A stretch of 64,000 bases of DNA from Tragulus kanchil (taxonomy: Eukaryota; Chordata; Mammalia; Artiodactyla; Tragulidae), in contig JAIOJX010000032.1 in assembly GCA_022376925.1 (NCBI GenBank), positions 170,649,979-170,713,978 on the forward strand, in the 5' to 3' direction. The notes beneath the pieces were generated by a model. The model had not been told where the DNA came from. It did not search any database and worked only from the letters and a program-made list of their open reading frames with translations. The position numbers and the translations under genes are program-made. Position 1 is the stretch's first letter. Every line of letters starts with the position of its first letter. Below are positions 2,607 through 62,277 of this stretch, in pieces.

Positions 2607-4812
2607 CTGACTTCACGCTCCAGAATGTCCGGCTCTGGGTGACGGACCACACCATCATGGTTATCCAGTTCATTAAGATCTTTCTTATACAGTTCTTCCA
2701 TGTATTCTTCCCATCTCTTCTTGATTTCTTCTGCTTCTACTAGATCTCTACCGTTCCTTCACTGTGCCCATCTTTGGGTGAAATGTTCCCAAGCTTAACT
2801 CAGTTCAAACACATGATGAGAGGCCTGAAGGGCTCTCCCCGTTAACTGGAATGTCCATGCAGAAACTGCTTCTTTAATAAAGAGCAGTAATGAAATTCAC
2901 AACCAACTCAGGCAATTAGCTAATGTTGCTAATGCACATTCACATTATTTACATGAATTTGATATAAATTATGGAAGCATTCCTGTAGGTCTCATTTAGA
3001 CACTTCACAAGATGCTCAAGAGTATCGCTACTATCTCAAGGTGTTTATTTCTTCAAAAACAGACAATCCAGCTACCAAGTTACCATCAAAAAGCCAAAGG
3101 AGTGAGTGTGCGCTGCCTGAAAGGAAGCCAGACAGTGAAACAACTCAGTCACCCTGTGCTTCTGAGGCCAAGAACAAAGGCCAGGAAAAGTGGGCAGGAG
3201 ACACAAGACAAATGTAAAATACAGATTGAAGTTAGCCGGCTTGGAGGCAGAACAGAGCTAATGAGCTGCAGAAAATCTCCTGGGACAATTATTATAATGT
3301 GATGACTATACTGTGATGACTTTCAGAAGTGATCTGACCTCAGGAAAGGGGCTTCAAACATGAAACAGGAACCGCCAGGTCACCGACGATGGGCAAAGCG
3401 ACCCCAGCTACCAGAAGCAAAGCTTCCTTACACATTTACATGGGAACCTGGACAATAAGTCAAACAGGCATCCACAGGTGATGCCCATGCCTCCAGGTCT
3501 GCACCCAAGACGTGAAAGTGCCTGTCCCCCACCCATCTGTTCACGACAGCCAGCAGGGAAAGAGCACAGGTGGACCGAACGGGGACCGCACGTGACATGC
3601 GTTCACCCACACGCAGGAACACCACCCAGCAACAGCGTGAAAGGAACACACTGCAGCACGGGGAGTCTTGAGCACACGCTGCAGGTGAAAGCGGCGGACA
3701 CGGGATTGCACTTCACCCTGACTTCCCAGAATGTCCGGCTCCATGGGTGACGGACCACACCATCATGGTTATCCAGTTCATTAAGATCTTTCTTATACAG
3801 TTCTTCCATGTATTCTTCCCATCTCTTCTTGATTTCTTCTGCTTCTACTAGATCTCTACCGTTCCTTCACTGTGCCCATCTTTGGGTGAAATGTTCCCAA
3901 GCTTAACTCAGTTCAAACACATGATGAGAGGCCTGAAGGGCTCTCCCCGTTAACTGGAATGTCCATGCAGAAACTGCTTCTTTAATAAAGAGCAGTAATG
4001 AAATTCACAACCAACTCAGGCAATTAGCTAATGTTGCTAATGCACATTCACATTATTTACATGAATTTGATATAAATTATGGAAGCATTCCTGTAGGTCT
4101 CATTTAGACACTTCACAAGATGCTCAAGAGTATCGCTACTATCTCAAGGTGTTTATTTCTTCAAAAACAGACAATCCAGCTACCAAGTTACCATCAAAAA
4201 GCCAAAGGAGTGAGTGTGCGCTGCCTGAAAGGAAGCCAGACAGTGAAACAACTCAGTCACCCTGTGCTTCTGAGGCCAAGAACAAAGGCCAGGAAAAGTG
4301 GGCAGGAGACACAAGACAAATGTAAAATACAGATTGAAGTTAGCCGGCTTGGAGGCAGAACAGAGCTAATGAGCTGCAGAAAATCTCCTGGGACAATTAT
4401 TATAATGTGATGACTATACTGTGATGACTTTCAGAAGTGATCTGACCTCAGGAAAGGGGCTTCAAACATGAAACAGGAACCGCCAGGTCACCGACGATGG
4501 GCAAAGCGACCCCAGCTACCAGAAGCAAAGCTTCCTTACACATTTACATGGGAACCTGGACAATAAGTCAAACAGGCATCCACAGGTGATGCCCATGCCT
4601 CCAGGTCTGCACCCAAGACGTGAAAGTGCCTGTCCCCCACCCATCTGTTCACGACAGCCAGCAGGGAAAGAGCACAGGTGGACCGAACGGGGACCGCACG
4701 TGACATGCGTTCACCCACACGCAGGAACACCACCCAGCAACAGCGTGAAAGGAACACACTGCAGCACGGGGAGTCTTGAGCACACGCTGCAGGTGAAAGC
4801 GGCGGACACGGG
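2607..4812. repeat. ~1.1-kb direct pair 1 (offset 1108)
   Basis: Copy 1 is 2607-3704 and copy 2 is 3718-4812. Between them lies a 13-base filler (3705-3717) found in neither flank. The start region is slightly scrambled (offset 1111, then 1106, then settling at 1108). The rest of the copies appears identical. The content is the 5' side of the BovB (to about 2795 / 3900) and then unique, non-coding DNA. See the finding on serial duplication. Confidence 0.95.
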
Positions 4813-5566
4813 AGTCTGTGCTGTGCTCACATGAAATGGCCCAACAGGCAGCGGCTGCACAGCTCTGTGAGCAGACTAAGCACCGCTGCACGAGACGTGC
4901 AGGGCCGGCGCACTGGTTGGTCGTGGCTACACAAGCACGAGCCAGCCAGCCAACGGCGAACCTCACCTGCTGAGACGCAGCTCTCCACCTCAAAGAAGTA
5001 AACCAAACAAGGAAAATGGTCCGAGAGTATTCATTTTGCGCCCCCCAAATGCATTCTTCTGTGGTGCCCCTTCCAAACCGTAAATACATTCACTGATAGG
5101 AACAACTCACAACTGTTTTTGGTAACTCCTTCTCCCCCAAATCTCAGAGTTCAACAGTTTTGTAACAAGTAAACTGATTTCAGCTTTCGTGTAAAGCAGA
5201 AGTCACACCTACACACAAATATAGCACTTTTAAATGACAGGGAGGATGCTCATTAGGGAACTAGCACCCCCTGCCCCCACCGTCACTAAAAACTACTCCT
5301 TAGTTCTTTCCACTATGAAACAAACATGAGAGCTGAGGTTTAAGAACCAGAAATACTTGTAAGACTTGAAGTCAATACAGTCAAAGAAAACACACACACT
5401 AACTGAACATAAAACTCATAAAAACACCAACAAGCCTACATATAAAATCACAGATTTATAGAAAGACTGCTTCCTCCACACCAGCAAATAACTCCCACCT
5501 CACTGCCGCCACTGCGCATGGGTCTCAGCGTTTTCAACAAGCCAACCGACAGAGGCCAGCGTGCCA
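4813..5566. other. Unique non-coding stretch
   Basis: This is AT-rich single-copy-looking DNA with short A-rich and CA-rich tracts. I see no gene, recognisable repeat or convincing exon. Open frames are short and lack codon bias. Confidence 0.6.
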
Positions 5567-6198
5567 CCTGAGCAGTTCTGTAATTGGCTAAAACCGTTAT
5601 TACGGTAATGTGCATTTCTATTTTCCGCAGGAAGAGAATCATGTCTACTCACAATTCACAATGAGTCAACCAGTGTGTAAAATATTTTACATAATGGGAA
5701 AATTTATTGTGACCCAAAAGTTCAGCGTGTTCTCATTAAGTTACCAGAAATTACAGATGTGAAGATTCTCTGTTAACTTAACCAAAATCAAGAAAAGAAA
5801 CTAATTCAGATATACACACATTTTCGGTTTGGCAGATCTAATTTTTTCTTTACGCTACTGTATGTATTTCAAATTACTCAGATTGGTAAATCCATACTCC
5901 AAGCACTAAATAAAGAAAATCTGCATGTTGACAACAGAGGTGACTTGAGACAGCTCTGACACTGCGTCACTTGTTACCCATGTAGACAAGCGATGTCAAA
6001 ACCCGGCAGAAAAGGTTCTGGTTTTTGTAAACACCTCTCTGGTTAAGTGGTTTTTCCAGAATTATGATACCATCGAATGTGCTAATTAACAGAGCCTTCC
6101 CATTGTGTCTCACTGTGAATAAAAACTTCTGTGGAAAATCTTATATGTAATAGTGCATCCATTTAACATTTTCTCACATGTTACATTCAGTGGGGTAT

Positions 6199-6222
6199 TT
6201 TGTTGTTGTTGTTGTTGTTGTT
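6199..6222 (+). repeat. (TTG)n microsatellite
   Basis: About eight TTG units form a perfect short tandem repeat. The same array recurs at 7332-7355 as part of the duplicated pair, with the same unit number. Confidence 0.9.
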
Positions 6223-6576
6223 TTTCAACAATCCCAAAGAGGGGGAAAAAAAAATTCCAGGATAAAACATTTTAGCAATTAAAACACACACAACTTTTCT
6301 ATTATGACCTTTTAAAATACCCTCAGTCTTCTACGATACTCTAAAGGCTACACTGGGAAACTGATCTGCTTATATATGCAATACAGATGCAAACATTTTA
6401 AACTACATAATCTATCTATACACACACTCTAAGAAATCAAATATTTCCAAGTCTATAAACATAATACCTCTGTAGCAAACATAATACCACCAGATATTTC
6501 TTATGCTACAGGTTAGTCCCACCAAATCGGTAATTATAAAACATGAGGAGGAGTCTCTTTTAAATCCTGTTAAATA

Positions 6577-6698
6577 GGGCTTCCCTGGTGGTCCAGTGGG
6601 TAAAGAGTCCGCCTTGCAGTGCAAGGGGCACCAGTTTGATCCATGGCCTGGGAAGATCCCACATGCCGAGGAGCGGCTGGGCCAGTGTGTCCAATCAA
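6577..6698 (+). mobile_element. CHR-type tRNA SINE, cut at a duplication junction
   Basis: The tRNA-Glu-like head is present: an A-box region 'tggtccagtgggtaa' and a B-box-like 'agtttgatcc'. The SINE then stops abruptly after 'gtgtccaatca', where copy 2 of the surrounding pair begins. The full-length twin starts at 7710. The truncation is therefore a junction effect and not a natural 5' or 3' truncation. Confidence 0.85.
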
Positions 6699-7331
6699 CT
6701 GGCCTGAGCAGTTCTGTAATTGGCTAAAACCGTTATTACGGTAATGTGCATTTCTATTTTCCGCAGGAAGAGAATCATGTCTACTCACAATTCACAATGA
6801 GTCAACCAGTGTGTAAAATATTTTACATAATGGGAAAATTTATTGTGACCCAAAAGTTCAGCGTGTTCTCATTAAGTTACCAGAAATTACAGATGTGAAG
6901 ATTCTCTGTTAACTTAACCAAAATCAAGAAAAGAAACTAATTCAGATATACACATTTTCGGTTTGGCAGATCTAATTTTTCTTTACGCTGCTGTACGTAT
7001 TTACAATTACTCGGCTTGGTAAATCCATACTCCAAGCACTAAATAAAGAAAATCTGCATGTTGACAACAGAGGTGACTTGAGACAGCTCTGACACTGCGT
7101 CACTTGTTACCCATGTAGACAAGCGATGTCAAAACCCGGCAGAAAAGGTTCTGGTTTTTGTAAACACCTCTCTGGTTAAGTGGTTTTTCCAGAATTATGA
7201 TACCATCGAATGTGCTAATTAACAGAGCCTTCCCATTGTGTCTCACTGTGAATAAAAACTTCTGTGGAAAATCTTATATGTAATAGTGCATCCATTTAAC
7301 ATTTTCTCACATGTTACATTCAGTGGGGTAT

Positions 7332-7355
7332 TTTGTTGTTGTTGTTGTTGTTGTT
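7332..7355 (+). repeat. (TTG)n microsatellite, second copy
   Basis: Twin of the array at 6199-6222, carried in copy 2 of the 1.1-kb pair, with identical unit number. Confidence 0.9.
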
Positions 7356-7709
7356 TTTCAACAATCCCAAAGAGGGGGAAAAAAAAATTCCAGGATAAAA
7401 CATTTTAGCAATTAAAACACACACAACTTTTCTATTATGACCTTTTAAAATACCCTCAGTCTTCTACGATACTCTAAAGGCTACACTGGGAAACTGATCT
7501 GCTTATATATGCAATACAGATGCAAACATTTTAAACTACATAATCTATCTATACACACACTCTAAGAAATCAAATATTTCCAAGTCTATAAACATAATAC
7601 CTCTGTAGCAAACATAATACCACCAGATATTTCTTATGCTACAGGTTAGTCCCACCAAATCGGTAATTATAAAACATGAGGAGGAGTCTCTTTTAAATCC
7701 TGTTAAATA

Positions 7710-7938
7710 GGGCTTCCCTGGTGGTCCAGTGGGTAAAGAGTCCGCCTTGCAGTGCAAGGGGCACCAGTTTGATCCCTGGCCTGGGAAGATCCCACGTGCT
7801 GAGAAGCGGCTGGGCCAGTGTGTCCAATCACGAACCAGTGCTCTGGGGCGCATGCATCCAGAGCCGGTGCTCTGCAACGGGAGAGGCCACTGCGATGGGA
7901 GGCCCATACAGATCAAAGAATAAAGATGGATGAAAAAT
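7710..7938 (+). mobile_element. CHR-type tRNA SINE, short form
   Basis: The element runs from 'gggcttccctggtggtcc' through A- and B-box-like sequences. It continues into the body with 'gtgtccaatca', 'gctctggggcgcatgc', 'gccactgcgatgggaggc' and an A-rich 'aaagaataaagatggatg' end. It belongs to the short (about 230 bp) form of the SINE family repeated through this window. Confidence 0.88.
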
Positions 7939-7940
7939 GA

Positions 7941-8446
7941 ATGATAACTTAGAGGCAAAAAAAAAATCATGTGAAATGAATCACTTGCAAATATTTACCA
8001 CAAAACTCTGGGTAAGGCCACCATGAATCACTCATAAAATCCCAGAATGCGTCCTGAAGGAAGGTCTACAATACAAACTCTTTTCTTAACTATCTTAAAA
8101 CACACTGCAGAAGACCATTCTCACAAGACTTTTTGAAAACTGTAGTATCTCTTATAAAACCTGAAAGGCTGTACGCGTGTTCCTGATTCAGTGTCAGGGT
8201 TCATTAACTCTTACATCCAGTGCCTTGGACAAAAATAACTCTAAATCTTTTGAAAGACTCATCTTTAATACACATACTCAGAGGAGAGTTAATACAATCC
8301 ACATAATTTATCAAAGACCACATAAGAACATCAGAAATAATACAAAGTTACATCTGCTTCAGGAGTAAAGTTTTGACCCCATATCCTTTTCAAGTGCCTG
8401 AAATATGCATTTTTAGACATATTTCAGTATTGGCTCTATATTTTCT
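7941..8446. other. Unique AT-rich stretch
   Basis: Non-coding AT-rich DNA between two SINEs. Only a 63-codon chance frame (8177-8368) is open, with no recognisable similarity. Confidence 0.55.
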
Positions 8447-8593: not shown

Positions 8594-8826
8594 CTCTATA
8601 TTTTCTAATTAAAAAAAAAAAAGGGCAGGTTTCCCCACAGCCTGGCAATTAAAACATTTTTTTATAATGCAAGCCCCATATCAGAAAGCAGATAACGTTT
8701 TTACATTAAAGATTTCTATTTATGTCAAAAATGCATTTTAAAAACAATAAAGTAAAACCATAGTCATATTTTAAAAGTCAGAAAACACATATTAAATCCA
8801 CTCAATGTTGAAAACTCATAGCTATG

Positions 8827-9202
8827 GTTTTTTTTTTTTTTTTAAAGATTTATTTATTTATTTTGGGCGGGGGTCGGATTGGGAAGGGAGGGGGACGGGC
8901 TGGCCACTTCTACTGGTCTTTCATTTCTCCATTTTCATCTGTCTTTGTTCTTTGGCTCCTGTGGGCCTCCCATCGCGGTGGTGTCTGTCGTTGCAGAGTG
9001 CTGGCTCTGGGCGCATGCGCCCCAGAGCTCTGGCTCGGTGATTGGACACATGGGTCCAGCCGCTCCGCGGCACGTGGGATCTTCCCAGGCCAGGGATCGA
9101 ACCGGCGCCCCTTGCACTGCAAGGCGGTGTCCTTACCCACTGGACCACCAGGGGATGGTGGGTAAGGCGGTGTCCTTACCCACTGGACCACCAGGGGAAG
9201 CC
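8827..9202 (-). mobile_element. CHR-type tRNA SINE, long form, with duplicated head
   Basis: This antisense long-form SINE has a poly(T)/'tttatttatttatttt' tail at 8827-8870 and then the body. The tRNA-like head is present twice: a 43-bp period makes 9121-9163 and 9164-9202 near-identical. The flanking duplication 'catagctatg' (8817-8826 and 9203-9212) marks insertion into a BovB fragment. The double head is odd (see findings). Confidence 0.87.
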
Positions 9203-9651
9203 CATAGCTATGATCTTCCCAGTAGTCATGTACAGATGTGAAAGTTGGACCATAAGAAGAAGGCTGAGCATCCAAGAATTGATGCTTCTGAATTATGCTG
9301 GAAAAGACCCTTGAGAGTCCCTCGGACTACAAGGAGATCAAACCAGTCAGTCCTAACCCTAACTCAACCCTGCAGACTCATTGGAAGGACTGAGGCTGAA
9401 GCCGAAGCTCCAATACTATGGCCACCTGATGGGAAGAGCCGGCTCCTTGGAAAAGACCCTGACGCTGGGAGAGCTTATCGGCAGGTGGAGAGGGGCAACC
9501 GAGGATGAGATGGTTGAACAGCATCATCAACTCAATGGACATGAGTCTGAGCAAGCTCTGGGAGACAGGGAAGGACAGGGAAGCCTGACATGCTGCAGTT
9601 CACGGGGTCGCAAAGAGCTGGACATGACTGAGCAACTGAACAACAACAAAT
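9203..9651 (+). mobile_element. BovB LINE 3' end fragment
   Basis: This is the sense-strand terminal ~450 bp of BovB. The translated 5' part contains the typical 'MYRCESWTIRR' and 'LRVPRTTRRSNQSVL' decayed blocks. It ends with 'cagttcacggggtcgcaaag', 'gacatgactgagcaactga' and the short ACA-rich tail. It is 5'-truncated, as most BovB copies are. The element probably begins at about 8817, with the preceding SINE inserted near its 5' edge. Confidence 0.9.
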
Positions 9652-10330: not shown

Positions 10331-10685
10331 GAGCCGGGCCGGGCCGGTCAGGCCGGCCTCTCCCCCGCGGCCTGGAGGAAGACCTTCGGGGAGGGGAGAG
10401 CTGCGGCCCCAGCCACAGGGCCCTGCTCTGGAGCCCAAGACGGGGGAGGGAAGGAGCAGGCCGCCCAGAGGTCAGGGAGCCCTGGGACGCGAGGGGCATG
10501 TGGCCCAAGCCGGCAAGCAGACGCCCAGCTATAAACCACGCTCCCTCTGAGCCTTGGCCATCTCATCTGTCAACACGAAGAGGGGCCAGAACCCGGACGT
10601 TTCGCAAGCTCCCACCCTGCAAAGTGAACCTGACCATTCACGGCCATCTCTGCTGAGGCGGCTGAGAACCCAAACGGTGGGAAAG

Positions 10686-10900
10686 GGAAAGTGCTAGTCG
10701 CTCAGTCATGGCGTCTCTGCACCCGCCTGGGCTGTCGCCCGCCAGGCTCCTCTGGCCATGGCGTTCTCCAGACAAGAGTACTGGAGCGCGCTGTCACCTC
10801 CTCCTCCAGGGGACCTTCCTGCCCGACCCAGGGGTCAGAGCCAGGTCTCCCCCACTGCAGGCAGATTCTTCAGTATCCGAGCTACCGTGGCGGGAGGAGG
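10686..10900 (-). mobile_element. Bov-tA SINE
   Basis: This is an antisense Bov-tA. The plus strand reads 'agtgctagtcgctcagtcat', 'ctgtcgcccgccaggctcct', 'tactggagcgcgctgtcacc' and 'ggcagattcttcagtat', the reverse complement of the standard SINE. It is a diverged copy. Confidence 0.88.
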
Positions 10901-11786
10901 ACTTAAATGCCACTAAAACCGTGCAAGAAGGCAAGAAAGCAGGTGAAGTGATGACCAGGAAAGAAGATGAGGAACTTTCCACCCGTCCCTTAAAAGGCTG
11001 GCGGACGCACTGCCCTCCGCTCCCCAAACCATGCTGCCGGAGGTGAAGACGCACAGCAGCTGTTAACCGTTTCGTGAAAACAGGAGGAGTCACTCAAACG
11101 TCCTTGGAAGGTGTGGCGCCGCCGGGCCCTGCCTCCCCGCACACCCTCACCTGGGACGGGCTGGAGCCGAGGCCGGCTCTCCCCCGACACCGGCAGCTTC
11201 CCCCACGCAGGATGAAGTGCCTGCCAAGCAACTATTAAGATGCACAAACGAGGGACATTTGGAGCAGCTGCAAAGCTCTATTAAGGATAACAAAATGGGT
11301 ATGTGGACCTCAAACTCTTCAAGGTTAACTACTCCCCTGGGTGAGATTGAACAGCCTAACAATAGAACACCATAATGAAGTGGCTTGAGATCTCAAACTT
11401 TTCCACGAAAACACACCCAAAGACACGGGAGAAGCCGGGCCGGCCCTCGAGGCCGGCCCCCCTCCCCGCGGCCTGGAGGAAGACCTTCGGGGAGGGGAGA
11501 GCTGCGGCCCCAGCCACAGGGCCCTGCTCTGGAGCCCAAGACGGGGGAGGGAAGGAGCAGGCCGCCCAGAGGTCAGGGAGCCCTGGGACGCGAGGGGCAT
11601 GTGGCCCAAGCCGGCAAGCAGACGCCCAGCTATAAACCACGCTCCCTCTGAGCCTTGGCCATCTCATCTGTCAACACGAAGAGGGGCCAGAACCCGGACG
11701 TTTCGCAAGCTCCCACCCTGCAAAGTGAACCTGACCATTCACGGCCATCTCTGCTGAGGCGGCTGAGAACCCAAACGGTGGGAAAG

Positions 11787-12001
11787 GGAAAGTGCTAGTC
11801 GCTCAGTCATGGCGTCTCTGCACCCGCCTGGGCTGTCGCCCGCCAGGCTCCTCTGGCCATGGCGTTCTCCAGACAAGAGTACTGGAGCGCGCTGTCACCT
11901 CCTCCTCCAGGGGACCTTCCTGCCCGACCCAGGGGTCAGAGCCAGGTCTCCCCCACTGCAGGCAGATTCTTCAGTATCCGAGCTACCGTGGCGGGAGGAG
12001 G
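11787..12001 (-). mobile_element. Bov-tA SINE, twin in copy 2
   Basis: Identical twin of the element at 10686-10900, carried by the 1.1-kb pair. It does not represent a second insertion. Confidence 0.88.
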
Positions 12002-12535
12002 ACTTAAATGCCACTAAAACCGTGCAAGAAGGCAAGAAAGCAGGTGAAGTGATGACCAGGAAAGAAGATGAGGAACTTTCCACCCGTCCCTTAAAAGGCT
12101 GGCGGACGCACTGCCCTCCGCTCCCCAAACCATGCTGCCGGAGGTGAAGACGCACAGCAGCTGTTAACCGTTTCGTGAAAACAGGAGGAGTCACTCAAAC
12201 GTCCTTGGAAGGTGTGGCGCCGCCGGGCCCTGCCTCCCCGCACACCCTCACCTGGGACGGGCTGGAGCCGAGGCCGGCTCTCCCCCGACACCGGCAGCTT
12301 CCCCCACGCAGGATGAAGTGCCTGCCAAGCAACTATTAAGATGCACAAACGAGGGACATTTGGAGCAGCTGCAAAAGCTCTATTAAGGATAACAAAATGG
12401 GTATGTGGACCTCAAACTCTTCAAGGTTAACTACTCCCCTGGGTGAGATTGAACAGCCTAACAATAGAACACCATAATGAAGTGGCTTGAGATCTCAAAC
12501 TTTTCCACGAAAACACACCCAAAGACACGGGAGAA

Positions 12536-14298: not shown

Positions 14299-16559
14299 AG
14301 GGACACAGGACAAATAAAACAATCTTGAAAAAGGAGAACAAACTTGGGGGCTTCATTATCCCAAGTTAACCCCGCCTCTGAAGCAAGCATCAGCAGACCG
14401 AAACAGTACTGACCGCACTGGCGTGAGGACGGCCAGCGGGATCAACAGCACAGAGCCCAGAGTCCAGGAGCTGCCCTGACATGTGCGGTCCACTCACTCC
14501 GACAGGCTACCAAGGCCATCTGAGGAGGAAAAGAAGTCTTTTCAACTAACAGACAAGCAGAGGTCCATTCTGCAAACAAAGGAAGCTAGACCCCTACCTC
14601 ACACCAGAATTAACTCAAAAAGGATCACAGGCTCAAGGCAAGAGCTAGAGCTACACACCTCTGAGAAGAAAAGAGGAGAGATCCTCCTGGTCCTGGCAGG
14701 CGAGCGGTTCCTAGATACAACACCGAAAGCACAAGCAACCGAATGGGGGAAAACTCGATCAGCTGGATGTCATCAAGGTTAGAAACATTTGTGATGGGAG
14801 GACACCCTCAGGAAGGTGAGAAGACACCTGACAGAAGGGAAAGAACAGCTACAGAACACGCCTCTGATAAAGGAAGGGCGCTCGGGTCAGGTAAAGAACT
14901 CGTACACTCAGTAACAAGACAGCTCCGTTTTAATACTGGGCACAGAATACGAAGAGACGCTTCTCCGAGGTTATCTCAATGGTCACCCGGAAGGATGCTT
15001 AACCTAACCCGTCATGAGGGAAGTGCACGCCACAACCACAACGAGGTATCAGTTCACACCCACCAGGTCTGAAACAAAAAGGAGGGGCAGTGGCTGCGTC
15101 TGGTGAAGACGCAGAGCACTGAGCTTTCACATGCAGGGATGAGCGTGGAAATGCCCCGCTGCTTTCAAACAGTCCTGCCGTCTTTCTAAATGGTAAACAG
15201 GGCTGTCGCATGATCTAGTTTTGTTTGCAACAGATACAAAACCTTAGGTTCTCATAAAAAGCTTTATAGGATTGTTCACAGCAGCGTTGTTTATAATACC
15301 CAAAAAGGGGAAACAAGCCAATGTCCATCAACTGATGAATGTATAAAGAAAGTGTGGTCTAGCCAAAGAGTGAAATGTTATTTGCCTATATATATGAATT
15401 ACTATTGTGTGCTAAAACATGGATTCTTCATAGGGACACAGGACAAATAAAACAATCTTGAAAAGGAGAACAAACTTGGGGGCTTCATTATCCCAAGTTA
15501 ACCCCGCCTCTGAAGCAAGCATCAGCAGACCGAAACAGTACTGACCGCACTGGCGTGAGGACGGCCAGCGGGATCAACAGCACAGAGCCCAGAGTCCAGG
15601 AGCTGCCCTGACATGTGCGGTCCACTCACTCCGACAGGCTACCAAGGCCATCTGAGGAGGAAAAGAAGTCTTTTCAACTAACAGACAAGCAGAGGTCCAT
15701 TCTGCAAACAAAGGAAGCTAGACCCCTACCTCACACCAGAATTAACTCAAAAAGGATCACAGGCTCAAGGCAAGAGCTAGAGCTACACACCTCTGAGAAG
15801 AAAAGAGGAGAGATCCTCCTGGTCCTGGCAGGCGAGCGGTTCCTAGATACAACACCGAAAGCACAAGCAACCGAATGGGGGAAAACTCGATCAGCTGGAT
15901 GTCATCAAGGTTAGAAACATTTGTGATGGGAGGACACCCTCAGGAAGGTGAGAAGACACCTGACAGAAGGGAAAGAACAGCTACAGAACACGCCTCTGAT
16001 AAAGGAAGGGCGCTCGGGTCAGGTAAAGAACTCGTACACTCAGTAACAAGACAGCTCCGTTTTAATACTGGGCACAGAATACGAAGAGACGCTTCTCCGA
16101 GGTTATCTCAATGGTCACCCGGAAGGATGCTTAACCTAACCCGTCATGAGGGAAGTGCACGCCACAACCACAACGAGGTATCAGTTCACACCCACCAGGT
16201 CTGAAACAAAAAGGAGGGGCAGTGGCTGCGTCTGGTGAAGACGCAGAGCACTGAGCTTTCACATGCAGGGATGAGCGTGGGAAATGCCCCCGCTGCTTTC
16301 AAACAGTCCTGCCGTCTTTCTAAATGGTAAACAGGGCTGTCGCATGATCTAGTTTTGTTTGCAACAGATACAAAACCTTAGGTTCTCATAAAAAGCTTTA
16401 TAGGATTGTTCACAGCAGCGTTGTTTATAATACCCAAAAAGGGGAAACAAGCCAATGTCCATCAACTGATGAATGTATAAAGAAAGTGTGGTCTAGCCAA
16501 AGAGTGAAATGTTATTTGCCTATATATATGAATTACTATTGTGTGCTAAAACATGGATT
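14299..16559. repeat. ~1.1-kb direct pair 4 (offset 1132-1134)
   Basis: Copy 1 is 14299-15425 and copy 2 is 15432-16559, with a six-base filler between. Differences are single-base A, G and C run length changes near 14330/15463 and 15146-15160/16278-16294. The pair lies inside an L1 3' end, so the L1 seems to repeat about 900 bp of itself. Confidence 0.95.
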
Positions 16560-35272: not shown

Positions 35273-35276
35273 ATGG

Positions 35277-36376: not shown

Positions 36377-36380
36377 ATGG

Positions 36381-42205: not shown

Positions 42206-42242
42206 CATCTACTATGAGTTTAAAACTCAAAAAATATAAAGA

Positions 42243-44599: not shown

Positions 44600-44655
44600 C
44601 ACGCCCCTCCCTCACTCCAGTCATCACCAGTGCCGAGTTCAAAACTTTACAGTGG

Positions 44656-45746: not shown

Positions 45747-46025
45747 GGCTTCCCTGGTGGTCCAGTGGGTAAAGAGTGCAAGGGGCACCGGTTCAATCCC
45801 TGGCCTGGGAAGATCCCATATGCCGCAGAGCGGCTGGACTGGTGTGTCCAATTATGAGCCAGTGCTCTGCAGTGAGAGAGGCCACTGCAATGGGAGGCCC
45901 ACACAGGCCAAAGAATAAAAAGATGGATGAAAATAAATGTAAATTTAAAAAGAGGCATGATGAGGAAAAGAGGGAAAAAAAGAGAAAGAGAGAGGTAAAA
46001 AAAACTCTTTAAATAATAAAAAAAG
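45747..46025 (+). mobile_element. CHR-type tRNA SINE, twin with 29-bp deletion
   Basis: Copy-2 twin of 44656-44963 with the same target duplication. It lacks the 29-bp segment containing 'gagcgcatgcgcccagagcc'. Confidence 0.9.
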
Positions 46026-46750
46026 AAAACTTTACAGTGGTTCCAGCAGAAGAGCCACGCAAAATCATTCACAAAATACCAGTGACATCATTTCCTTCTT
46101 AAGAGTGGAGAGGTTTCTTTGCCTTTAACTTATACTCCCATCAGCCATCCGCAATTATAATAAATTCCAGGTGAATGGGTGGAATCTGCCCATGTTGGGC
46201 TGTAACCAGCTCTCTACAGAGTGACCAGGCCTCCGGGATTTGTTCACCGCTAACAAGCTAATATTTGAAAACCCTGTAAAGACATAATGACTACATACTA
46301 TCATTATTACTAAACTACCGGTTTAAATGTAAATTAAGAGAGAAAGGGGAAAGAAAACACATTACTAAATCAAGTCTGGGTCCTCTCTGAGGCGAGAACC
46401 ACAGAGTAAAGAATGCCCCTTACTGGAGGATGTGGAATTCAGGGTCTCTGCTGCAGGAAACTCACTCAAAATGGAGACAAGGAACAGAGGACCCACTGGA
46501 GGGTCAGTCCATGCAGGCAGAGCAGATGCCGGAGGAAAGGAAGGGCAGCGGGGAAAGCAAACGCTGGAAAACACACAATGTCACACCTCTAGAATCCGAA
46601 AGCAAAACTAAAAAGTCTAGATAAGAACAAAATCTAAAACTGGATTGTAATTCAGCGTAGACCAACCACAGAGCAGGGTGGTGAAAACATGGACTCCCGA
46701 GTCCGCAGGCCTTACGTTCTTGCTTTTCCTCATCTGTAAAATGGGGAGGA

Positions 46751-47150: not shown

Positions 47151-49298
47151 GGGCCAATCTTGGGAAAATGAAGACTACAGGGGGCAAAGGAAGAAAGAGA
47201 AAACCCTCTCCTCTGGGTGAACTGGGCCTGCTTTCCCAGATGATGAACTGGCCGGGGCGCCTCCCGTAGCCACACTCTGAGCCCCAGCTGCCTCCCATGT
47301 ACAATCAGGGAACTCGACTCAACCTTGCTCCAGTCCCCGCCAATGACATGCGACACGCTAGCTTACACTCTAAGACCTTAACCCCTCACTCTATTACGTC
47401 TCAGTCCTCTGCCACCAGGAAGATCAACACCAGTAGAAGACTCTTGTCCATCTGTCTCATAAGAAGCAAGTCTAGGTCTGGTGCTGTTCATCCCACTTTA
47501 CAGATGGAGACACCAAGGCAGAGGCGCCCAGCGGCCGGCCCTCAGGGCCACTCGGCTGGGGGGTACAAAGGGCAGGACTGGGATTCTGACCTTTCAAGCG
47601 GGTGCCTTCCACCATGCCCACACTTCCCCGGCCAGAGGGTGGACGGCCCCCAGGACACGTGGCAGGAATGCCAGCGGACGCGTCGCAGGCCCTGGGAGAG
47701 CCAAGGACGAGCACAGGGCACCTTCTGGACAATCAACTGTACTCATAAGCTGAGGGGACAGCGTGTGTTTACAGCAAAAGAAAAGAGCCAGACCTATGAT
47801 TGAGTACAATGTAAAATTCCTACTAAATTTTAAGATAAAATTTAATGGGCTTGGACTCCTAAGGAGGGCTAGAGACGCAGTAAACTAAAACCACGCCCTT
47901 CTCACACAGAAAAGCCTTCGGAAACCAGAACACTTAATTTACCCCATAATAACATTTCAAACATCAAGCTATATTAATCCAAAAAAGACAGAATTTAATT
48001 TCCAGAATAAAGTTGTGACTTCCAGGCATTACCAGGCAAGGGAGGACTCAAGAGAACAGGCTTCTTCGTGTTTCCTCTTGGAAGTCATTAAAAGCACCCA
48101 GGAAAGTTAGGATGCCAGAAGAAGCCTGCTGTCTTACAAGCCCTCTCAGGCCACCACCGGGGAGCGGAGCGCCATCAGAGCCCGGGTGGGGAGAGCACGG
48201 TCAGTGCCGCCTGCAGACACGCACGGGCCAATCTTGGGAAAATGAAGACTACAGGGGGCAAAGGAAGAAAGAGAAAACCCTCTCCTCTGGGTGAACTGGG
48301 CCTGCTTTCCCAGATGATGAACTGGCCGGGGCGCCTCCCGTAGCCACACTCTGAGCCCCAGCTGCCTCCCATGTACAATCAGGGAACTCGACTCAACCTT
48401 GCTCCAGTCCCCGCCAATGACATGCGACACGCTAGCTTACACTCTAAGACCTTAACCCCTCACTCTATTACGTCTCAGTCCTCTGCCACCAGGAAGATCA
48501 ACACCAGTAGAAGACTCTTGTCCATCTGTCTCATAAGAAGCAAGTCTAGGTCTGGTGCTGTTCATCCCACTTTACAGATGGAGACACCAAGGCAGAGGCG
48601 CCCAGCGGCCGGCCCTCAGGGCCACTCGGCTGGGGGGTACAAAGGGCAGGACTGGGATTCTGACCTTTCAAGCGGGTGCCTTCCACCATGCCCACACTTC
48701 CCCGGCCAGAGGGTGGACGGCCCCCAGGACACGTGGCAGGAATGCCAGCGGACGCGTCGCAGGCCCTGGGAGAGCCAAGGACGAGCACAGGGCACCTTCT
48801 GGACAATCAACTGTACTCATAAGCTGAGGGGACAGCGTGTGTTTACAGCAAAAGAAAAGAGCCAGACCTATGATTGAGTACAATGTAAAATTCCTACTAA
48901 ATTTTAAGATAAAATTTAATGGGCTTGGACTCCTAAGGAGGGCTAGAGACGCAGTAAACTAAAACCACGCCCTTCTCACACAGAAAAGCCTTCGGAAACC
49001 AGAACACTTAATTTACCCCATAATAACATTTCAAACATCAAGCTATATTAATCCAAAAAAGACAGAATTTAATTTCCAGAATAAAGTTGTGACTTCCAGG
49101 CATTACCAGGCAAGGGAGGACTCAAGAGAACAGGCTTCTTCGTGTTTCCTCTTGGAAGTCATTAAAAGCACCCAGGAAAGTTAGGATGCCAGAAGAAGCC
49201 TGCTGTCTTACAAGCCCTCTCAGGCCACCACCGGGGAGCGGAGCGCCATCAGAGCCCGGGTGGGGAGAGCACGGTCAGTGCCGCCTGCAGACACGCAC
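47151..49298. repeat. ~1.1-kb direct pair 11 (offset 1074)
   Basis: Copy 1 is 47151-48224 and copy 2 is 48225-49298. They abut at a shared 'gggcca' and no differences were seen. The content is unique non-coding DNA, GC-rich in the first half and AT-rich in the second. Confidence 0.95.
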
Positions 49299-49768
49299 GG
49301 GGGCCCCGGGCCGGCGTCTGCCTCAGCCCCCTCCTCTCCCAAACCTGCCGCTTCCGAACACAAGCACCGACAGAGCAAAGCCCACCACGCACCGGGTCTG
49401 GGGCGACCAGCACGCCAGCGCCTCGAGCGTCCGCTGGCCACCTACCGGCCACAAGCCGCGCGGGGCACGGCCAGCCTCTGCAACCTTCCCCGTAACCGTG
49501 ACTCCTGGAAACTATCGCCTGAGTATTTTGATGCTACTGCCATCCTGAAGATTACAGGATCCCAGTCAATTAATCAATTCAGCTTCTCTCCACTCAAAGA
49601 AAAACCAAGTTACCAACAAATATGGGTTTTGCCATAGAATCAGTGTTTTAATTGGAAAAGAAATCAGGATATCAGAACAGCGGGCATAACACCTTTCTTG
49701 GTAGAACGGCCTGGCCTCATGAGAAGTTACCAAATAGCCTCCGTTAAAAGAAAACAAACCATGGGGTC
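49299..49768. other. Unique stretch
   Basis: GC-rich to 49500 and then AT-rich. No recognised gene or repeat. Confidence 0.5.
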
Positions 49769-50496: not shown

Positions 50497-52726
50497 GACT
50501 TTCCAGCATCCTTCCCGTTCTCTGCGCGACCCAGCAGTTGACTTCAGCCCAGCCAGTGGACTGTCCTGGCTTCTCCCCACGGGGCTGTACTCTCCGGCTG
50601 AGCAGCCGGCTCCCTGAGGGCAGGGTGGTGAAAGGCTCATGTCTCCTCTCCCTTCTGGGCACACGCTTCAGTCTTGGCGCTCCTCAGTCAAACATCACTG
50701 GTTTCCGGCATCTTCCTTCATCATGCGCAGGGGACAAGACGCTCCAGTTTTCGGCAGGCCGCAGCTCAAAGACAGCTGCCGCGTCTCCCTCGTCCCAGCA
50801 CTGTGACCAGAGCGCTACGGGGACTCCAGACCCAGTCACTGAGCACCGACTTAAAGGAGAAAAAGGCCCCCCAGTGTCAGCCAACCAGCTACTAATCCTG
50901 CAGAATACAGAACTGAGCAAGAGATTCCCACCTGACTTCCGGAGGTGACCGAAACCCACAACACTCCCCTGCCCTTAGACATCTCTCCACCTGCCGGGGC
51001 CCCCCCAACAAGTCTACACAGGAAGACAAGCAATTCTGGCCCCCAAATGGTTTGGATGCTTAATGGCAAAAACCTCCCCTTCTCCCTTCCTACATCGGTC
51101 AGGCCCCCATGCCTCACGTGTTGTGCAGACCTATCCACAAAGGCCCGCTAAAATCCGAAAGGCATTTTGTGATTTTCAGATTACTGTGAATGACAGGTAT
51201 CACGCAAGTACACACGTTCTCTGGCCCGTTTTCCCTTTTCCGTCTAGAGCTGCACTGGCTTCTGCTCCGCGTACAGCTCTGGACCCAAAGCCCGCCGCCG
51301 CGGCGCCCGCCACGCCATCCCCCCCACCCGCCCCCCGGCCCGCGCCGCTGCCCTCGCACCCGCAGGCGTCCGGCCCTCTCTCACGCCGGCTTCCCTGCTT
51401 CTCCCAGAACAAGTCTGAGCGTCATCTCCACATTCAGGCCTCGGCTGCCTCTCTCTGGTCACCTTCCAAACCACTGGCCTCACCTCCTTCCTTCTCACTC
51501 TGGAGCTCTTTTCCCAGTTTCTCTGTATCTCTGGTCAATATTACGACTCTCCGTCCCCAGCAAGAAACAGTAATAATAATCTTCTTTCCTCTACGAACAC
51601 TTGTAAAAATGCAGGGGACTTTCCAGCATCCTTCCCGTTCTCTGCGCGACCCAGCAGTTGACTTCAGCCCAGCCAGTGGACTGTCCTGGCTTCTCCCCAC
51701 GGGGCTGTACTCTCCGGCTGAGCAGCCGGCTCCCTGAGGGCAGGGTGGTGAAAGGCTCATGTCTCCTCTCCCTTCTGGGCACACGCTTCAGTCTTGGCGC
51801 TCCTCAGTCAAACATCACTGGTTTCCGGCATCTTCCTTCATCATGCGCAGGGGACAAGACGCTCCAGTTTTCGGCAGGCCGCAGCTCAAAGACAGCTGCC
51901 GCGTCTCCCTCGTCCCAGCACTGTGACCAGAGCGCTACGGGGACTCCAGACCCAGTCACTGAGCACCGACTTAAAGGAGAAAAAGGCCCCCCAGTGTCAG
52001 CCAACCAGCTACTAATCCTGCAGAATACAGAACTGAGCAAGAGATTCCCACCTGACTTCCGGAGGTGACCGAAACCCACAACACTCCCCTGCCCTTAGAC
52101 ATCTCTCCACCTGCCGGGGCCCCCCCAACAAGTCTACACAGGAAGACAAGCAATTCTGGCCCCCAAATGGTTTGGATGCTTAATGGCAAAAACCTCCCCT
52201 TCTCCCTTCCTACATCGGTCAGCCCCCCATGCCTCACGTGTTGTGCAGACCTATCCACAAAGGCCCGCTAAAATCCGAAAGGCATTTTGTGATTTTCAGA
52301 TTACTGTGAATGACAGGTATCACGCAAGTACACACGTTCTCTGGCCCGTTTTCCCTTTTCCGTCTAGAGCTGCACTGGCTTCTGCTCCGCGTACAGCTCT
52401 GGACCCAAAGCCCGCCGCCGCGGCGCCCGCCACGCCATCCCCCCCACCCGCCCCCCGGCCCGCGCCGCTGCCCTCGCACCCGCAGGCGTCCGGCCCTCTC
52501 TCACGCCGGCTTCCCTGCTTCTCCCAGAACAAGTCTGAGCGTCATCTCCACATTCAGGCCTCGGCTGCCTCTCTCTGGTCACCTTCCAAACCACTGGCCT
52601 CACCTCCTTCCTTCTCACTCTGGAGCTCTTTTCCCAGTTTCTCTGTATCTCTGGTCAATATTACGACTCTCCCGTCCCCAGCAAGAAACAGTAATAATAA
52701 TCTTCTTTCCTCTACGAACACTTGTA
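50497..52726. repeat. ~1.1-kb direct pair 12 (offset 1120-1121)
   Basis: Copy 1 is 50497 to about 51616 and copy 2 is 51617-52726. One G/C substitution lies near 51101/52221 and a one-C indel near 51551/52671. The end of copy 1 ('cttgtaaaaatgcagggg') looks like an error-laden reading of the sequence that follows copy 2 ('cttgtagagaagcatgcagg'). The overlap may therefore extend right up to the join. Confidence 0.95.
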
Positions 52727-55790: not shown

Positions 55791-56506
55791 CTGACTCCTG
55801 CACCTGTTCCCTCTCCCGCGCGGGGCCAGGTGGTGGGGCTGGAGGTGCCCATTCCTCCTCCATGGAGGAGCCTTTCCTGGCTGCCTGGGCTCCTGCCACA
55901 CCCAGGAAGTTGGGTCAAGTGTGAACAGGGCGGCCAGTCTGCCATGTGCTCCCGGAGGGCCCCGTCACCCCGCGCCTCCCTGGCCGTCCGGGGCCGTGCA
56001 GCCTCCAGAGGCCTCGGCCCTCTGCCCCCGAGCCAGCAAGGGTTCCCCGAAGCCCTCTAAGTCGGCCTCCACCCTGGCTGGGCGACGCGGGTCACCAGGG
56101 AGGGCTCGTCTCGGCGAGGCTCCCGGCCAACCAAAGACGAGCAAGGCCTCCTCTGCCTGGGTGGACAGGCTGCGCCTTCTTCTCTTCCTCGGGAGGCTCT
56201 TAAGGATCCCTAGGCCAGAGTTGCGACCAGTGTGGCCCCCTTAAGCCAATCTCCCTTCTTATTTCTCTCCAATGCCTCGTTGGCTACGGGCAGGAAGTCC
56301 AGCATCTCCTCCAGAGGCTTCCTCTGCGGAACGTTCCAGAACCCTGGACAGTCTGCCCGGGCTGCTGGAGCCACTGGTCTGTCTCCTTCCGCCCCAGAGG
56401 TGGGGCTTTGCCCCCTAGACTCGGCCAGCCTGCCGCAGCGGCCCTTCCTGGCCACGGAGAGGGCGCAGCTCCCGGAGCGCAGACCAGAGGACCCAAGATA
56501 GCTGTC

Positions 56507-56520
56507 GTTGCCCCAGCAAC
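56507..56520 (+). promoter_or_regulatory. RFX X-box motif
   Basis: 'gttgccccagcaac' fits the X-box consensus GTNRCC(N0-3)RGYAAC perfectly, with a two-base spacer. Such sites bind RFX factors and are enriched in promoters of ciliary genes. The twin in copy 2 is at 57608-57621, and the third copy of the surrounding segment begins inside the motif and keeps only its right half. Sequence match only, with no expression evidence. Confidence 0.5.
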
Positions 56521-57607
56521 CATCAGCCGGGTCGGCGCTGCACACAGACCCCTGGGCTCTGACCCGGGCAGAGTCCCCAGATGGGCGCCCCTTTCCCTGC
56601 CGCGGGCTCTGCTTCAGAGCCTCGGGACCCCCTCCTGCCCGTCGGAAGGCGCCGTGGCTCTCCCGGCCGCCCACGCCGGGCGCCGAGGCCTCTGCGGGTC
56701 TGCCCATCGCTGCCAGCCCCCGGGTCTGCTCAGGCCGCCGGCCTCGGAGGCTGCAGCCAGGCCCCACTCCAGCCTCCTGTCTCGCACTCGACTGGGGTCT
56801 CTTTAAGACTTTGCCGGAATTCTCGAGGCTGGATCGTTTGGGGTTCTCCTAAACAACAAGGCAGAAGTTTCAAAGACCTTTCCGGTCAGCATGGACTCCT
56901 GCACCTGTTCCCTCTCCCGCGCGGGGCCAGGTGGTGGGGCTGGAGGTGCCCATTCCTCCTCCATGGAGGAGCCTTTCCTGGCTGCCTGGGCTCCTGCCAC
57001 ACCCAGGAAGTTGGGTCAAGTGTGAACAGGGCGGCCAGTCTGCCATGTGCTCCCGGAGGGCCCCGTCACCCCGCGCCTCCCTGGCCGTCCGGGGCCGTGC
57101 AGCCTCCAGAGGCCTCGGCCCTCTGCCCCCGAGCCAGCAAGGGTTCCCCGAAGCCCTCTAAGTCGGCCTCCACCCTGGCTGGGCGACGCGGGTCACCAGG
57201 GAGGGCTCGTCTCGGCGAGGCTCCCGGCCAACCAAAGACGAGCAAGGCCTCCTCTGCCTGGGTGGACAGGCTGCGCCTTCTTCTCTTCCTCGGGAGGCTC
57301 TTAAGGATCCCTAGGCCAGAGTTGCGACCAGTGTGGCCCCCTTAAGCCAATCTCCCTTCTTATTTCTCTCCAATGCCTCGTTGGCTACGGGCAGGAAGTC
57401 CAGCATCTCCTCCAGAGGCTTCCTCTGCGGAACGTTCCAGAACCCTGGACAGTCTGCCCGGGCTGCTGGAGCCACTGGTCTGTCTCCTTCCGCCCCAGAG
57501 GTGGGGCTTTGCCCCCTAGACTCGGCCAGCCTGCCGCAGCGGCCCTTCCTGGCCACGGAGAGGGCGCAGCTCCCGGAGCGCAGACCAGAGGACCCAAGAT
57601 AGCTGTC

Positions 57608-57621
57608 GTTGCCCCAGCAAC
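57608..57621 (+). promoter_or_regulatory. RFX X-box motif, twin
   Basis: Identical to 56507-56520, carried by pair 13. Confidence 0.5.
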
Positions 57622-58186
57622 CATCAGCCGGGTCGGCGCTGCACACAGACCCCTGGGCTCTGACCCGGGCAGAGTCCCCAGATGGGCGCCCCTTTCCCTG
57701 CCGCGGGCTCTGCTTCAGAGCCTCGGGACCCCCTCCTGCCCGTCGGAAGGCGCCGTGGCTCTCCCGGCCGCCCACGCCGGGCGCCGAGGCCTCTGCGGGT
57801 CTGCCCATCGCTGCCAGCCCCCGGGTCTGCTCAGGCCGCCGGCCTCGGAGGCTGCAGCCAGGCCCCACTCCAGCCTCCTGTCTCGCACTCGACTGGGGTC
57901 TCTTTAAGACTTTGCCGGAATTCTCGAGGCTGGATCGTTTGGGGTTCTCCTAAACAACAAGGCAGAAGTTTCAAAGACCCGTCAGAGGGGTTTTCTACAG
58001 TTCGTTGTGCTCTCCACCAAAGCAGCGCCAGGCAGCATGCGGCAGGAACAGACTCCGGGACGAGCCCCGGCGGAGCCCTCCGCTGGGCCGTGAAGGCGTG
58101 CTCCGCTCCCGTCCGCCTTCCTCCCGCTGCTTTCTCTTCTGCAGCCGTCTGAGCAGTTCTGGACTCCCTGCTTGGATGACTCGCAG

Positions 58187-58356
58187 GGGGCGGTGACACA
58201 AAGAAGTTTGCCCCAAACGAGGAAACCGCCTTGGGGGCGGGCGTTCTGTCCTCTGCAGTTACGGCCGCCGGGCAGCAGTGACGGGCAGCGAGGACAGCCA
58301 ATCACAGCTCTCCTCGCCGCATTTCAAAGCCTGAGCTCTCTGTTCCCTATGGCAAC
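58187..58356 (+). promoter_or_regulatory. GC-box/CCAAT-box cluster, possible small promoter
   Basis: GC boxes at 58187-58193 (GGGGCGG) and 58233-58242 (within 'gggggcgggc'), a CCAAT box 'gccaatc' at 58297-58303, and an RFX-type half-site 'ggcaac' at 58351-58356 occur in promoter-like order. The twin lies at 59284-59453. There is no supporting transcript information. Confidence 0.35.
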
Positions 58357-59283
58357 GTGGAACAACAAGCGGACACCATTTCTGGACAAAGAAATTTCTC
58401 GCAGGAATTTATGCAGCATTACATGTTCTGTCTGCTGCATTTCTGGGAGCAGGGCACATGGATATTCGAGTGACTCACTAAGTACAGTGGCTCAGAAGCC
58501 ATTCCTGTTTGTCTTTAGAGAGGAGGGGAAAGTGTTCGGTTTTCATTGTTAGGGAATCTAAAGGGCTTAAAATGAGGTTTCCTGAGACCACTCCCTGAGG
58601 ATCAGGCCCGCTAGGGACAACTCCCTACTCAAAGACCGGCGCCCTGTGGGTCTGACTGGACCAAAATGTGCTGGGACTTCTCCCACCCAAACTGGGCACC
58701 TGGAAGCGGCCCAGCAACCATCAGCCGGGTCGGCGCTGCACACAGACCCCTGGGCTCTGACCCGGGCAGAGTCCCCAGATGGGCGCCCCTTTCCCTGCCG
58801 CGGGCTCTGCTTCAGAGCCTCGGGACCCCCTCCTGCCCGTCGGAAGGCGCCGTGGCTCTCCCGGCCGCCCACGCCGGGCGCCGAGGCCTCTGCGGGTCTG
58901 CCCATCGCTGCCAGCCCCCGGGTCTGCTCAGGCCGCCGGCCTCGGAGGCTGCAGCCAGGCCCCACTCCAGCCTCCTGTCTCGCACTCGACTGGGGTCTCT
59001 TTAAGACTTTGCCGGAATTCTCGAGGCTGGATCGTTTGGGGTTCTCCTAAACAACAAGGCAGAAGTTTCAAAGACCCGTCAGAGGGGTTTTCTACAGTTC
59101 GTTGTGCTCTCCACCAAAGCAGCGCCAGGCAGCATGCGGCAGGAACAGACTCCGGGACGAGCCCCGGCGGAGCCCTCCGCTGGGCCGTGAAGGCGTGCTC
59201 CGCTCCCGTCCGCCTTCCTCCCGCTGCTTTCTCTTCTGCAGCCGTCTGAGCAGTTCTGGACTCCCTGCTTGGATGACTCGCAG

Positions 59284-59453
59284 GGGGCGGTGACACAAAG
59301 AAGTTTGCCCCAAACGAGGAAACCGCCTTGGGGGCGGGCGTTCTGTCCTCTGCAGTTACGGCCGCCGGGCAGCAGTGACGGGCAGCGAGGACAGCCAATC
59401 ACAGCTCTCCTCGCCGCATTTCAAAGCCTGAGCTCTCTGTTCCCTATGGCAAC
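59284..59453 (+). promoter_or_regulatory. GC-box/CCAAT-box cluster, twin
   Basis: Copy-2 twin of 58187-58356 in pair 14. It probably does not exist separately if the pair is an assembly artefact. Confidence 0.3.
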
Positions 59454-59805
59454 GTGGAACAACAAGCGGACACCATTTCTGGACAAAGAAATTTCTCGCA
59501 GGAATTTATGCAGCATTACATGTTCTGTCTGCTGCATTTCTGGGAGCAGGGCACATGGATATTCGAGTGACTCACTAAGTACAGTGGCTCAGAAGCCATT
59601 CCTGTTTGTCTTTAGAGAGGAGGGGAAAGTGTTCGGTTTTCATTGTTAGGGAATCTAAAGGGCTTAAAATGAGGTTTCCTGAGACCACTCCCTGAGGATC
59701 AGGCCCGCTAGGGACAACTCCCTACTCAAAGACCGGCGCCCTGTGGGTCTGACTGGACCAAAATGTGCTGGGACTTCTCCCACCCAAACAACTGGGCACC
59801 TGGAA

Positions 59806-60030
59806 AATTAAAACCTGCTGAGACAAGTCTCTTCCCGACTTCTGAATGTAATTCACATTGCAGACCCACTGTGTGTAACACGTGTGCATTTATACGCACA
59901 TCTGTGTAGCAGATGCTTCACCTCCAACATGAGATATTCTGATATTTTCTGTTCCATTCTGTTTATTTATCAATGCTGGTTGTGACGGTCCCAGCTCATG
60001 GTGGGGTCACGGCCTGCAGTCTGAAACCAC
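59806..60030. other. Short unique stretch
   Basis: Non-coding DNA between pairs 14 and 15, with no features recognised. Confidence 0.5.
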
Positions 60031-62277
60031 TCTCTTAGATGAAAAGAGCTGCTGAAGACGGTCAGGGTGGCCCGGGGTTTGGGGTGATCGTTGTGGGAAG
60101 TGCCCTCTCCTTCCTGCCCTGTCATGCGTGTGCGCTGTGGTGCAGGTTTCGTGGCCAAGGACACCTGTCCCCCCTCTCTGCCCAGTTCTGTCTCTGAAGT
60201 CGCCCTGGCTAACAGCAGAGGAGCACCGGCAGCAAAGCAGGCTGCCAGTGCCCCTTCTCTGGACGGGGAGCGCCAGAAACAACTGCAGAGGAAATGAGGC
60301 CTGGAGAGGCCCAGGAGGCCTGAGGGGTATGCAAACACAGCCTCGGGTTTCAGGCAAGCAGTGAGACAGAGGCAAGGTGGGGGGGTGGGGGAACTGGCCA
60401 CAGAAAGTTTTAAGTTTCTCTCATTTCTATGGGCCTCTCAGGGCGATAAAACTGTCTTCGTTGTAGGGGAACCTGTTGTGGGATTTGTGCATACGCCCAA
60501 TCACCAGCCCCCCCACTAGCCCTGGCTCTTTCCCCTGTCCTTCAGGAGTACGAGGCCAGGGAAGGCCAGCCTCCCACAGGCAGCCTGGACGGGCACCCCA
60601 CCCTCACACGTCACTTCTGAAAACCAGACTCAGCTCCACCAAGAAAGAGGGATTTTTCCTGCAGACCTCACGGGAGACGGGGAAGAGGGTTTACCTCGGG
60701 CTCACACAGCAAAGTCATGAAACCCACGAAAAGCCGGGCACCTGCCCTCCAGCCCCAGAGGGGTCGCCTGTCTTTGGGGGCACCGTTCCTCGCCCTCCAC
60801 CACGAGCGAGGTCTCCTCGTAGCCTCCGTTGCCCCCACACAACACAAGTCCAGCCTCAGCAGGCAGACCCCACTCAGCAAGCAAAAGCCAGCGGCTCCCG
60901 GAGCAGCCAGTCAGGTGAGCCCCGCCCCCCCACGCTGGCGGTGCAACGGGCAGCCGTGCGCCCTCCACACTCAGGAGCCACGAGGAGGAGGGGAAGACCC
61001 CTGGCTTCAAGTCAAGTCTGGGATTAATGAGAGAAACGCTCTGAAAAACACAGTGATTCTAAGCTGTCAGAACTGCAGTACGCCTTCTCACTGGGAACAA
61101 GGGCAGCTCTCGAGGCTGGCGACCGCAAGCCTGAGCTGCCGCACGCTGCTGGGTCTCTTAGATGAAAAGAGCTGCTGAAGACGGTCAGGGTGGCCCGGGG
61201 TTTGGGGTGATCGTTGTGGGAAGTGCCCTCTCCTTCCTGCCCTGTCATGCGTGTGCGCTGTGGTGCAGGTTTCGTGGCCAAGGACACCTGTCCCCCCTCT
61301 CTGCCCAGTTCTGTCTCTGAAGTCGCCCTGGCTAACAGCAGAGGAGCACCGGCAGCAAAGCAGGCTGCCAGTGCCCCTTCTCTGGACGGGGAGCGCCAGA
61401 AACAACTGCAGAGGAAATGAGGCCTGGAGAGGCCCAGGAGGCCTGAGGGGTATGCAAACACAGCCTCGGGTTTCAGGCAAGCAGTGAGACAGAGGCAAGG
61501 TGGGGGGGTGGGGGAACTGGCCACAGAAAGTTTTAAGTTTCTCTCATTTCTATGGGCCTCTCAGGGCGATAAAACTGTCTTCGTTGTAGGGGAACCTGTT
61601 GTGGGATTTGTGCATACGCCCAATCACCAGCCCCCCCACTAGCCCTGGCTCTTTCCCCTGTCCTTCAGGAGTACGAGGCCAGGGAAGGCCAGCCTCCCAC
61701 AGGCAGCCTGGACGGGCACCCCACCCTCACACGTCACTTCTGAAAACCAGACTCAGCTCCACCAAGAAAAAGGGATTTTTCCTGCAGACCTCACGGGAGA
61801 CGGGGAAGAGGGTTTACCTCGGGCTCACACAGCAAAGTCATGAAACCCACGAAAAGCCGGGCACCTGCCCTCCAGCCCCAGAGGGGTCGCCTGTCTTTGG
61901 GGGCACCGTTCCTCGCCCTCCACCACGAGCGAGGTCTCCTCGTAGCCTCCGTTGCCCCCACACAACACAAGTCCAGCCTCAGCAGGCAGACCCCACTCAG
62001 CAAGCAAAAGCCAGCGGCTCCCGGAGCAGCCAGTCAGGTGAGCCCCGCTCCTCCCACGCTGGCGGTGCAACGGGCAGCCGTGCGCCCTCCACACTCAGGA
62101 GCCACGAGGAGGAGGGGAAGACCCCTGGCTTCAAGTCAAGTCTGGGATTAATGAGAGAAACGCTCTGAAAAACACAGTGATTCTAAGCTGTCAGAACTGC
62201 AGTACGCCTTCTCACTGGGAACAAGGGCAGCTCTCGAGGCTGGCGACCGCAAGCCTGAGCTGCCGCACGCTGCTGGG
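60031..62277. repeat. ~1.1-kb direct pair 15 (offset 1123-1124)
   Basis: Copy 1 is 60031-61153 and copy 2 is 61154-62277, abutting at a shared 'tct'. Differences are one G/A substitution near 60648/61771 and a small C-run rearrangement near 60931/62049, about 220 bp before the end of copy 1. The content is GC-rich unique DNA. The ~183- and 189-codon frames in it are not recognisable. Confidence 0.95.

Follow-up and report, generated by a model that had tools for sequence, protein, structure and literature searches.

Self-comparison by BLASTN of the window, by which we mean the whole 64,000-bp stretch of DNA that was analysed, identified 15 abutting direct pairs between positions 2,620 and 62,279. 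The aligned lengths of the pairs were 890-1,149 bp and their identities 98.7-100%, which bears out the first-pass annotation, where fifteen head-to-tail direct pairs of near-identical copies had been described. Spacers ranged from -4 to +40 bp, and all 15 pairs were flush or near-flush tandems. No N gaps lay between the copies, and the whole 64,000-bp window contained zero N. The pairs are listed below as copy 1 and copy 2, with the start offset between them.

Pair 1: 2620-3705 and 3726-4813 (+), offset 1106 bp, spacer 20 bp, identity 99.8% (BLASTN)
Pair 2: 5567-6697 and 6703-7830 (+), offset 1136 bp, spacer 5 bp, identity 98.9%
Pair 3: 10363-11433 and 11464-12535 (+), offset 1101 bp, spacer 30 bp, identity 99.9%
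Pair 4: 14299-15425 and 15432-16559 (+), offset 1133 bp, spacer 6 bp, identity 99.7%
Pair 5: 19474-20592 and 20593-21710 (+), offset 1119 bp, spacer 0, identity 99.1%
Pair 6: 24891-25994 and 26001-27095 (+), offset 1110 bp, spacer 6 bp, identity 98.7%
Pair 7: 27392-28479 and 28478-29565 (+), offset 1086 bp, shared edge of 2 bp (spacer -2), identity 100%
Pair 8: 34403-35467 and 35508-36571 (+), offset 1105 bp, spacer 40 bp, identity 99.2%
Pair 9: 38843-39991 and 39988-41133 (+), offset 1145 bp, shared edge of 4 bp (spacer -4), identity 99.5%
Pair 10: 44607-45683 and 45698-46745 (+), offset 1091 bp, spacer 14 bp, copy 2 with a 29-bp deletion; identity 99.8% over the 890 bp aligned by BLAST, plus 158/158 bases farther upstream
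Pair 11: 47151-48227 and 48225-49301 (+), offset 1074 bp, shared edge of 3 bp (spacer -3), identity 100%
Pair 12: 50497-51605 and 51617-52726 (+), offset 1120 bp, spacer 11 bp, identity 99.8%
Pair 13: 55793-56878 and 56894-57979 (+), offset 1101 bp, spacer 15 bp, identity 100%
Pair 14: 57613-58705 and 58710-59805 (+), offset 1097 bp, spacer 4 bp, identity 99.7%, 367-bp overlap with pair 13
Pair 15: 60031-61155 and 61154-62279 (+), offset 1123 bp, shared edge of 2 bp (spacer -2), identity 99.7%

The strongest offset peaks in a 24-mer self-comparison coincided with the values given in the first-pass annotation or lay a few bases away from them. Additional values (1145, 1102, 1134, 1136, 1124, 1121 and 1091) appeared because indels move the register between the copies. 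The only other offsets with more than 50 shared 24-mers were 420, 2,198, 228 and 1,091, the last of which belongs to pair 10. The 2,198 offset marks a third copy of 367 bp, which arises because the length of two units exceeds that of the piece 56,894-58,705. The small size of this piece, 1.8 kb from junction to junction, is also why units 13 and 14 overlap, with 367 identical bases in common.

Pair 10 required correction. Upstream of the copy 1 reported by BLAST, 158 of 158 bases, starting at 44,607, are identical to 45,698-45,855, and the offset passes from 1,091 to 1,062 because 29 bp of copy 1 are missing from copy 2. These 29 bp (44765-44793) lie within a SINE, are present only in copy 1 and constitute the largest difference between any two copies; they could be either allelic or a consensus fault. 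An apparent 172-bp spacer had made this pair look like an exception, which we rejected: the 29-bp deletion had split the alignment, and the true spacer is 14 bp. The previously listed offsets thus held for nearly all pairs and failed for pair 10, since the start at 44,607 gives 1,091 and only then 1,062. With this correction, the start offsets of pairs 1-15 ranged from 1,074 to 1,145 bp with a mean of 1,110 and a standard deviation (sd) of 20.

The pieces from junction to junction measured 1,812-6,990 bp (n=14), in agreement with the earlier estimate of contig pieces of 1.8-7 kb. The pairs were then collapsed by dropping copy 1 and the spacer at each site. The collapsed window was 47,353 bp long, an excess of 16,647 bp in the 64,000 (~26%), where about 16.6 kb of added sequence had been proposed. 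After collapse no plus-strand self-match was above 95% identity apart from the 420-bp tandem close to 471 and a single direct match of 35 bp, and there is therefore no size spectrum of duplications. Chance is not a credible source of the pair pattern.

The content of the units was arbitrary, as had been proposed, with GC of 0.37-0.67 and CpG observed/expected of 0.11-0.66 across the 15 units. The accompanying claim that the units share no sequence largely stood. It did not hold for units 13 and 14, which overlap, nor for units 2/10, 3/7, 3/8 and 7/8, which have fragments of 94-183 bp in common at 73-82% identity; these are taken to be dispersed repeats. Because unit content is arbitrary and only such short repeat-like fragments are common to units outside the 13/14 overlap, an origin from a mobile element was rejected. 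Information content at the left boundaries, junctions and right boundaries was compared with 1,000 random sets by six measures. Five of the six lay inside the bulk of the random sets, with no motif or target-site signal, and the sixth (left boundary, best column) was equalled by 50 of the 1,000. There is no convincing boundary motif or recognition site at the units.

The six spacers of at least 10 bp (pairs 1, 3, 8, 10, 12 and 13) were compared with their flanks and with 300 controls. For pairs 1 and 3 the likeness of the spacer to the sequence preceding copy 1 beat all 300 controls, and that of pair 3 reproduces this sequence with noise. We read these two cases as a second piece that starts slightly upstream of copy 1 and has a noisy beginning. 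The spacer of pair 12 has 8 bp in common with the sequence following copy 2, a score reached by none of the 300 controls. The spacers of pairs 8 and 13 matched neither flank in this comparison, a point against an assembly origin. That of pair 10, as entered in the test, was mostly part of the unit itself.

Across 16,430 aligned columns the copies differed by 37 substitutions and 23 indels; pair 10 was aligned with provisional boundaries, which places its 29-bp indel about 30 positions off and leaves the counts unchanged. Fourteen of the 23 indels were in homopolymers and 18 of the 23 repeated a neighbouring unit. More than half of the substitutions (21/37) fell in four clusters (5857-5882, 6643-6671, 20375-20394 and 35373-35459), and all ten substitutions of pair 2 fell in two clusters. 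The first 103 bp of pair 6 held seven indels, each shortening copy 2, while three of the 15 pairs (7, 11 and 13) were 100% identical. The differences look like consensus errors.

These differences also appeared to be biased towards the junctions. Grouping of differences no more than 50 bp apart gave 26 clusters, ten of which lay in the end zones, defined as the 100 bp next to a unit end, where 4.7 were expected (binomial p 0.012), with both thresholds set post hoc after inspection of the data. Direction was assigned to indels only. Of the 12 indels in these end zones, 11 shortened the copy that touches the junction (copy 2 at the left end, copy 1 at the right), with 7 of the 12 contributed by only two pairs, 6 and 1. 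Counted by pair, the same direction was found in 6 of 7 (sign test p 0.06), the exception being pair 1. Among the remaining 11 indels copy 1 was the shorter in 5 and copy 2 in 6. The end bias would fit pieces that were built separately and whose consensus had little depth at the ends, and we consider it only suggestive because of the post hoc thresholds, the share of the two pairs and the sign test value.

The abutting pairs, their near-constant length, their arbitrary content and the error-like differences at piece ends support serial false duplication, as the first-pass annotation had proposed. Judged from the sequence, the window is very probably the product of such duplication by assembly software. 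We infer that the second copies are almost certainly not present in the animal. The window would consist of consensus pieces of ~1.8-7.0 kb that were built separately and then strung together, in which neighbouring pieces have ~1.1 kb in common and the joining may have retained both copies without aligning or trimming them. The near-fixed length of the common stretch (mean 1,110, sd 20) suggests that it was a fixed-size anchor rather than a random read overlap. Read overlaps vary in length, de Bruijn overlaps are exact and never above k, and allelic copies have no fixed length. A fixed-size anchor fits in that it accounts for the arbitrary sequence and the near-fixed length together.

The best candidate for such an anchor would be a layout of the wtdbg/wtdbg2 type, in which adjacent units would have one graph node in common, each layout unit would be given its own consensus and the units would then be put end to end. 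Given an artefact, we put an assembler of this type at about an even chance. The wtdbg2 graph node is 1,024 bp by default and is common to neighbouring layout units, and a likeness to wtdbg2 with wtpoa-cns would lie in such adjacent units with a ~1-kb node in common. The difference is that the program is designed to merge the stretch common to neighbouring units. All 15 joins would have failed, for which the wtdbg reading would need a systematic fault whose reason it does not give, and it likewise gives no reason for a mean offset of 1,110, 8% above the node size of 1,024. No 256-bp periodicity was seen in the 14 unit spacings (R 0.28 at 256 bp, at best 0.39 at 164); a 256-bp step is not strictly required under this reading, and read averaging could mask it. 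A passage in PMC11831799 describes wtdbg2 as handling reads in 256-bp bins, and one in PMC9915519 describes its contigs as overlapping read sequences that are later made consensus by wtpoa-cns.

The same artefact may instead have come about by another route, in which contigs that were short or noisy and overlapped at their ends were set side by side by a scaffolder or gap filler rather than in a layout-consensus join; we hold this to be a real possibility, somewhat short of an even chance. The flush tandems with small noisy spacers suit any unmerged overlap, and among the VGP homotype cases in PMC8081667, one was traced to a FALCON bug and others to scaffolding of overlapping contig ends. By this route, however, a widely varying overlap length would be expected, yet the sd is 20 bp, and scaffolders normally insert N, whereas the window has none. 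Heterotype false duplication would make the copies two alleles that were both retained. The lone substitutions in several pairs, the CAA-unit indel of pair 9 and the 29-bp indel of pair 10 could all be allelic. We nevertheless judge this explanation very improbable, with complete identity in 3 of 15 pairs and 21 of 37 substitutions packed into four tight clusters, and with the constant ~1.1-kb length and flush ends left without a reason by alleles. Some allele mixing atop the unmerged overlaps is possible.

A real biological process would have to duplicate arbitrary sequence in tandem at a near-constant ~1.1 kb every few kb. The pairs do exist in the sequence and their copies are near-identical, but a convincing boundary motif is lacking, the differences are of the consensus-error type and appear to be biased towards the junctions, and it is implausible that 47 kb of unique sequence should carry 15 very young events. 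We therefore give such a process practically no credence, and the same holds for its specific form, a recent and very dense germline tandem duplication of ~1.1 kb with the length set by a fixed-size molecular ruler, which we regard as extremely improbable.

False duplications in tandem that stem from overlaps at contig boundaries have already been described (VGP; PMC8081667). According to PMC9516828, the marks of a false duplication are a read depth that is halved or very low, the presence of gaps, and reads that align discordantly, and what lies between false copies is mostly a gap and sometimes sequence lacking read support. The present pairs resemble the VGP homotype duplications, as presented in PMC8081667 and PMC9516828, in having near-identical tandem copies of arbitrary sequence at piece boundaries. 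Unlike those cases, they number 15 in series within 60 kb and are gapless, and their length is near-fixed at ~1.1 kb, whereas that of the VGP homotype cases is about read length. Our literature search, made in the accessible text of open-licence papers, found no report of a serial 1.1-kb form of false duplication and none of a systematic merge failure of wtdbg2. Serial false duplication would have no significance as biology and would matter as assembly quality control. If it is genome-wide, it could lead to false exon gains, an inflated genome size and misleading structural-variant and gene-family counts.

Several other repeats were observed in the window.

410-1371: tandem of 2.3 copies of a 420-bp unit, with 99.1% identity between 471-940 and 891-1360
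37888-38573: 38-bp minisatellite in 18.1 copies, with a stronger 228-bp period (6 x 38) at 92% identity
2016-2561 (-): reverse-transcriptase fragment, RVT_1 E 3e-7, 30.8 bits, above the cut-off of 29.6
40798-41274 (+): reverse-transcriptase fragment, RVT_1 E 6.9e-6, 26.4 bits, short of the 29.6 cut-off

The 420-bp tandem lies outside the 1.1-kb size class and belongs to a repeat with further copies, 74-80% identical, around 9203-9639 and 32486-32899; it could be real or a further assembly fault. The RVT_1 frame at 2,016-2,558 (-) reads like what we take to be BovB, and other open frames in the window resemble Bov-A. The DNA is therefore taken to be from a ruminant. A CHR-like SINE had at first pointed to a cetacean, a reading given up in view of the BovB-like and Bov-A-like frames; for the pygmy right whale, PMC10091562 describes a final assembly by Supernova with long-read scaffolding and gap closing, wtdbg2 having been tried only. 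A SINE family, which we assume to be tRNA-derived, was present in seven copies on both strands.

7700-7945: tRNA-derived SINE copy
8825-9160: tRNA-derived SINE copy
19030-19295: tRNA-derived SINE copy
31800-32145: tRNA-derived SINE copy
37345-37590: tRNA-derived SINE copy
42230-42575: tRNA-derived SINE copy
44645-44900: tRNA-derived SINE copy

This family possibly helps to name the lineage.
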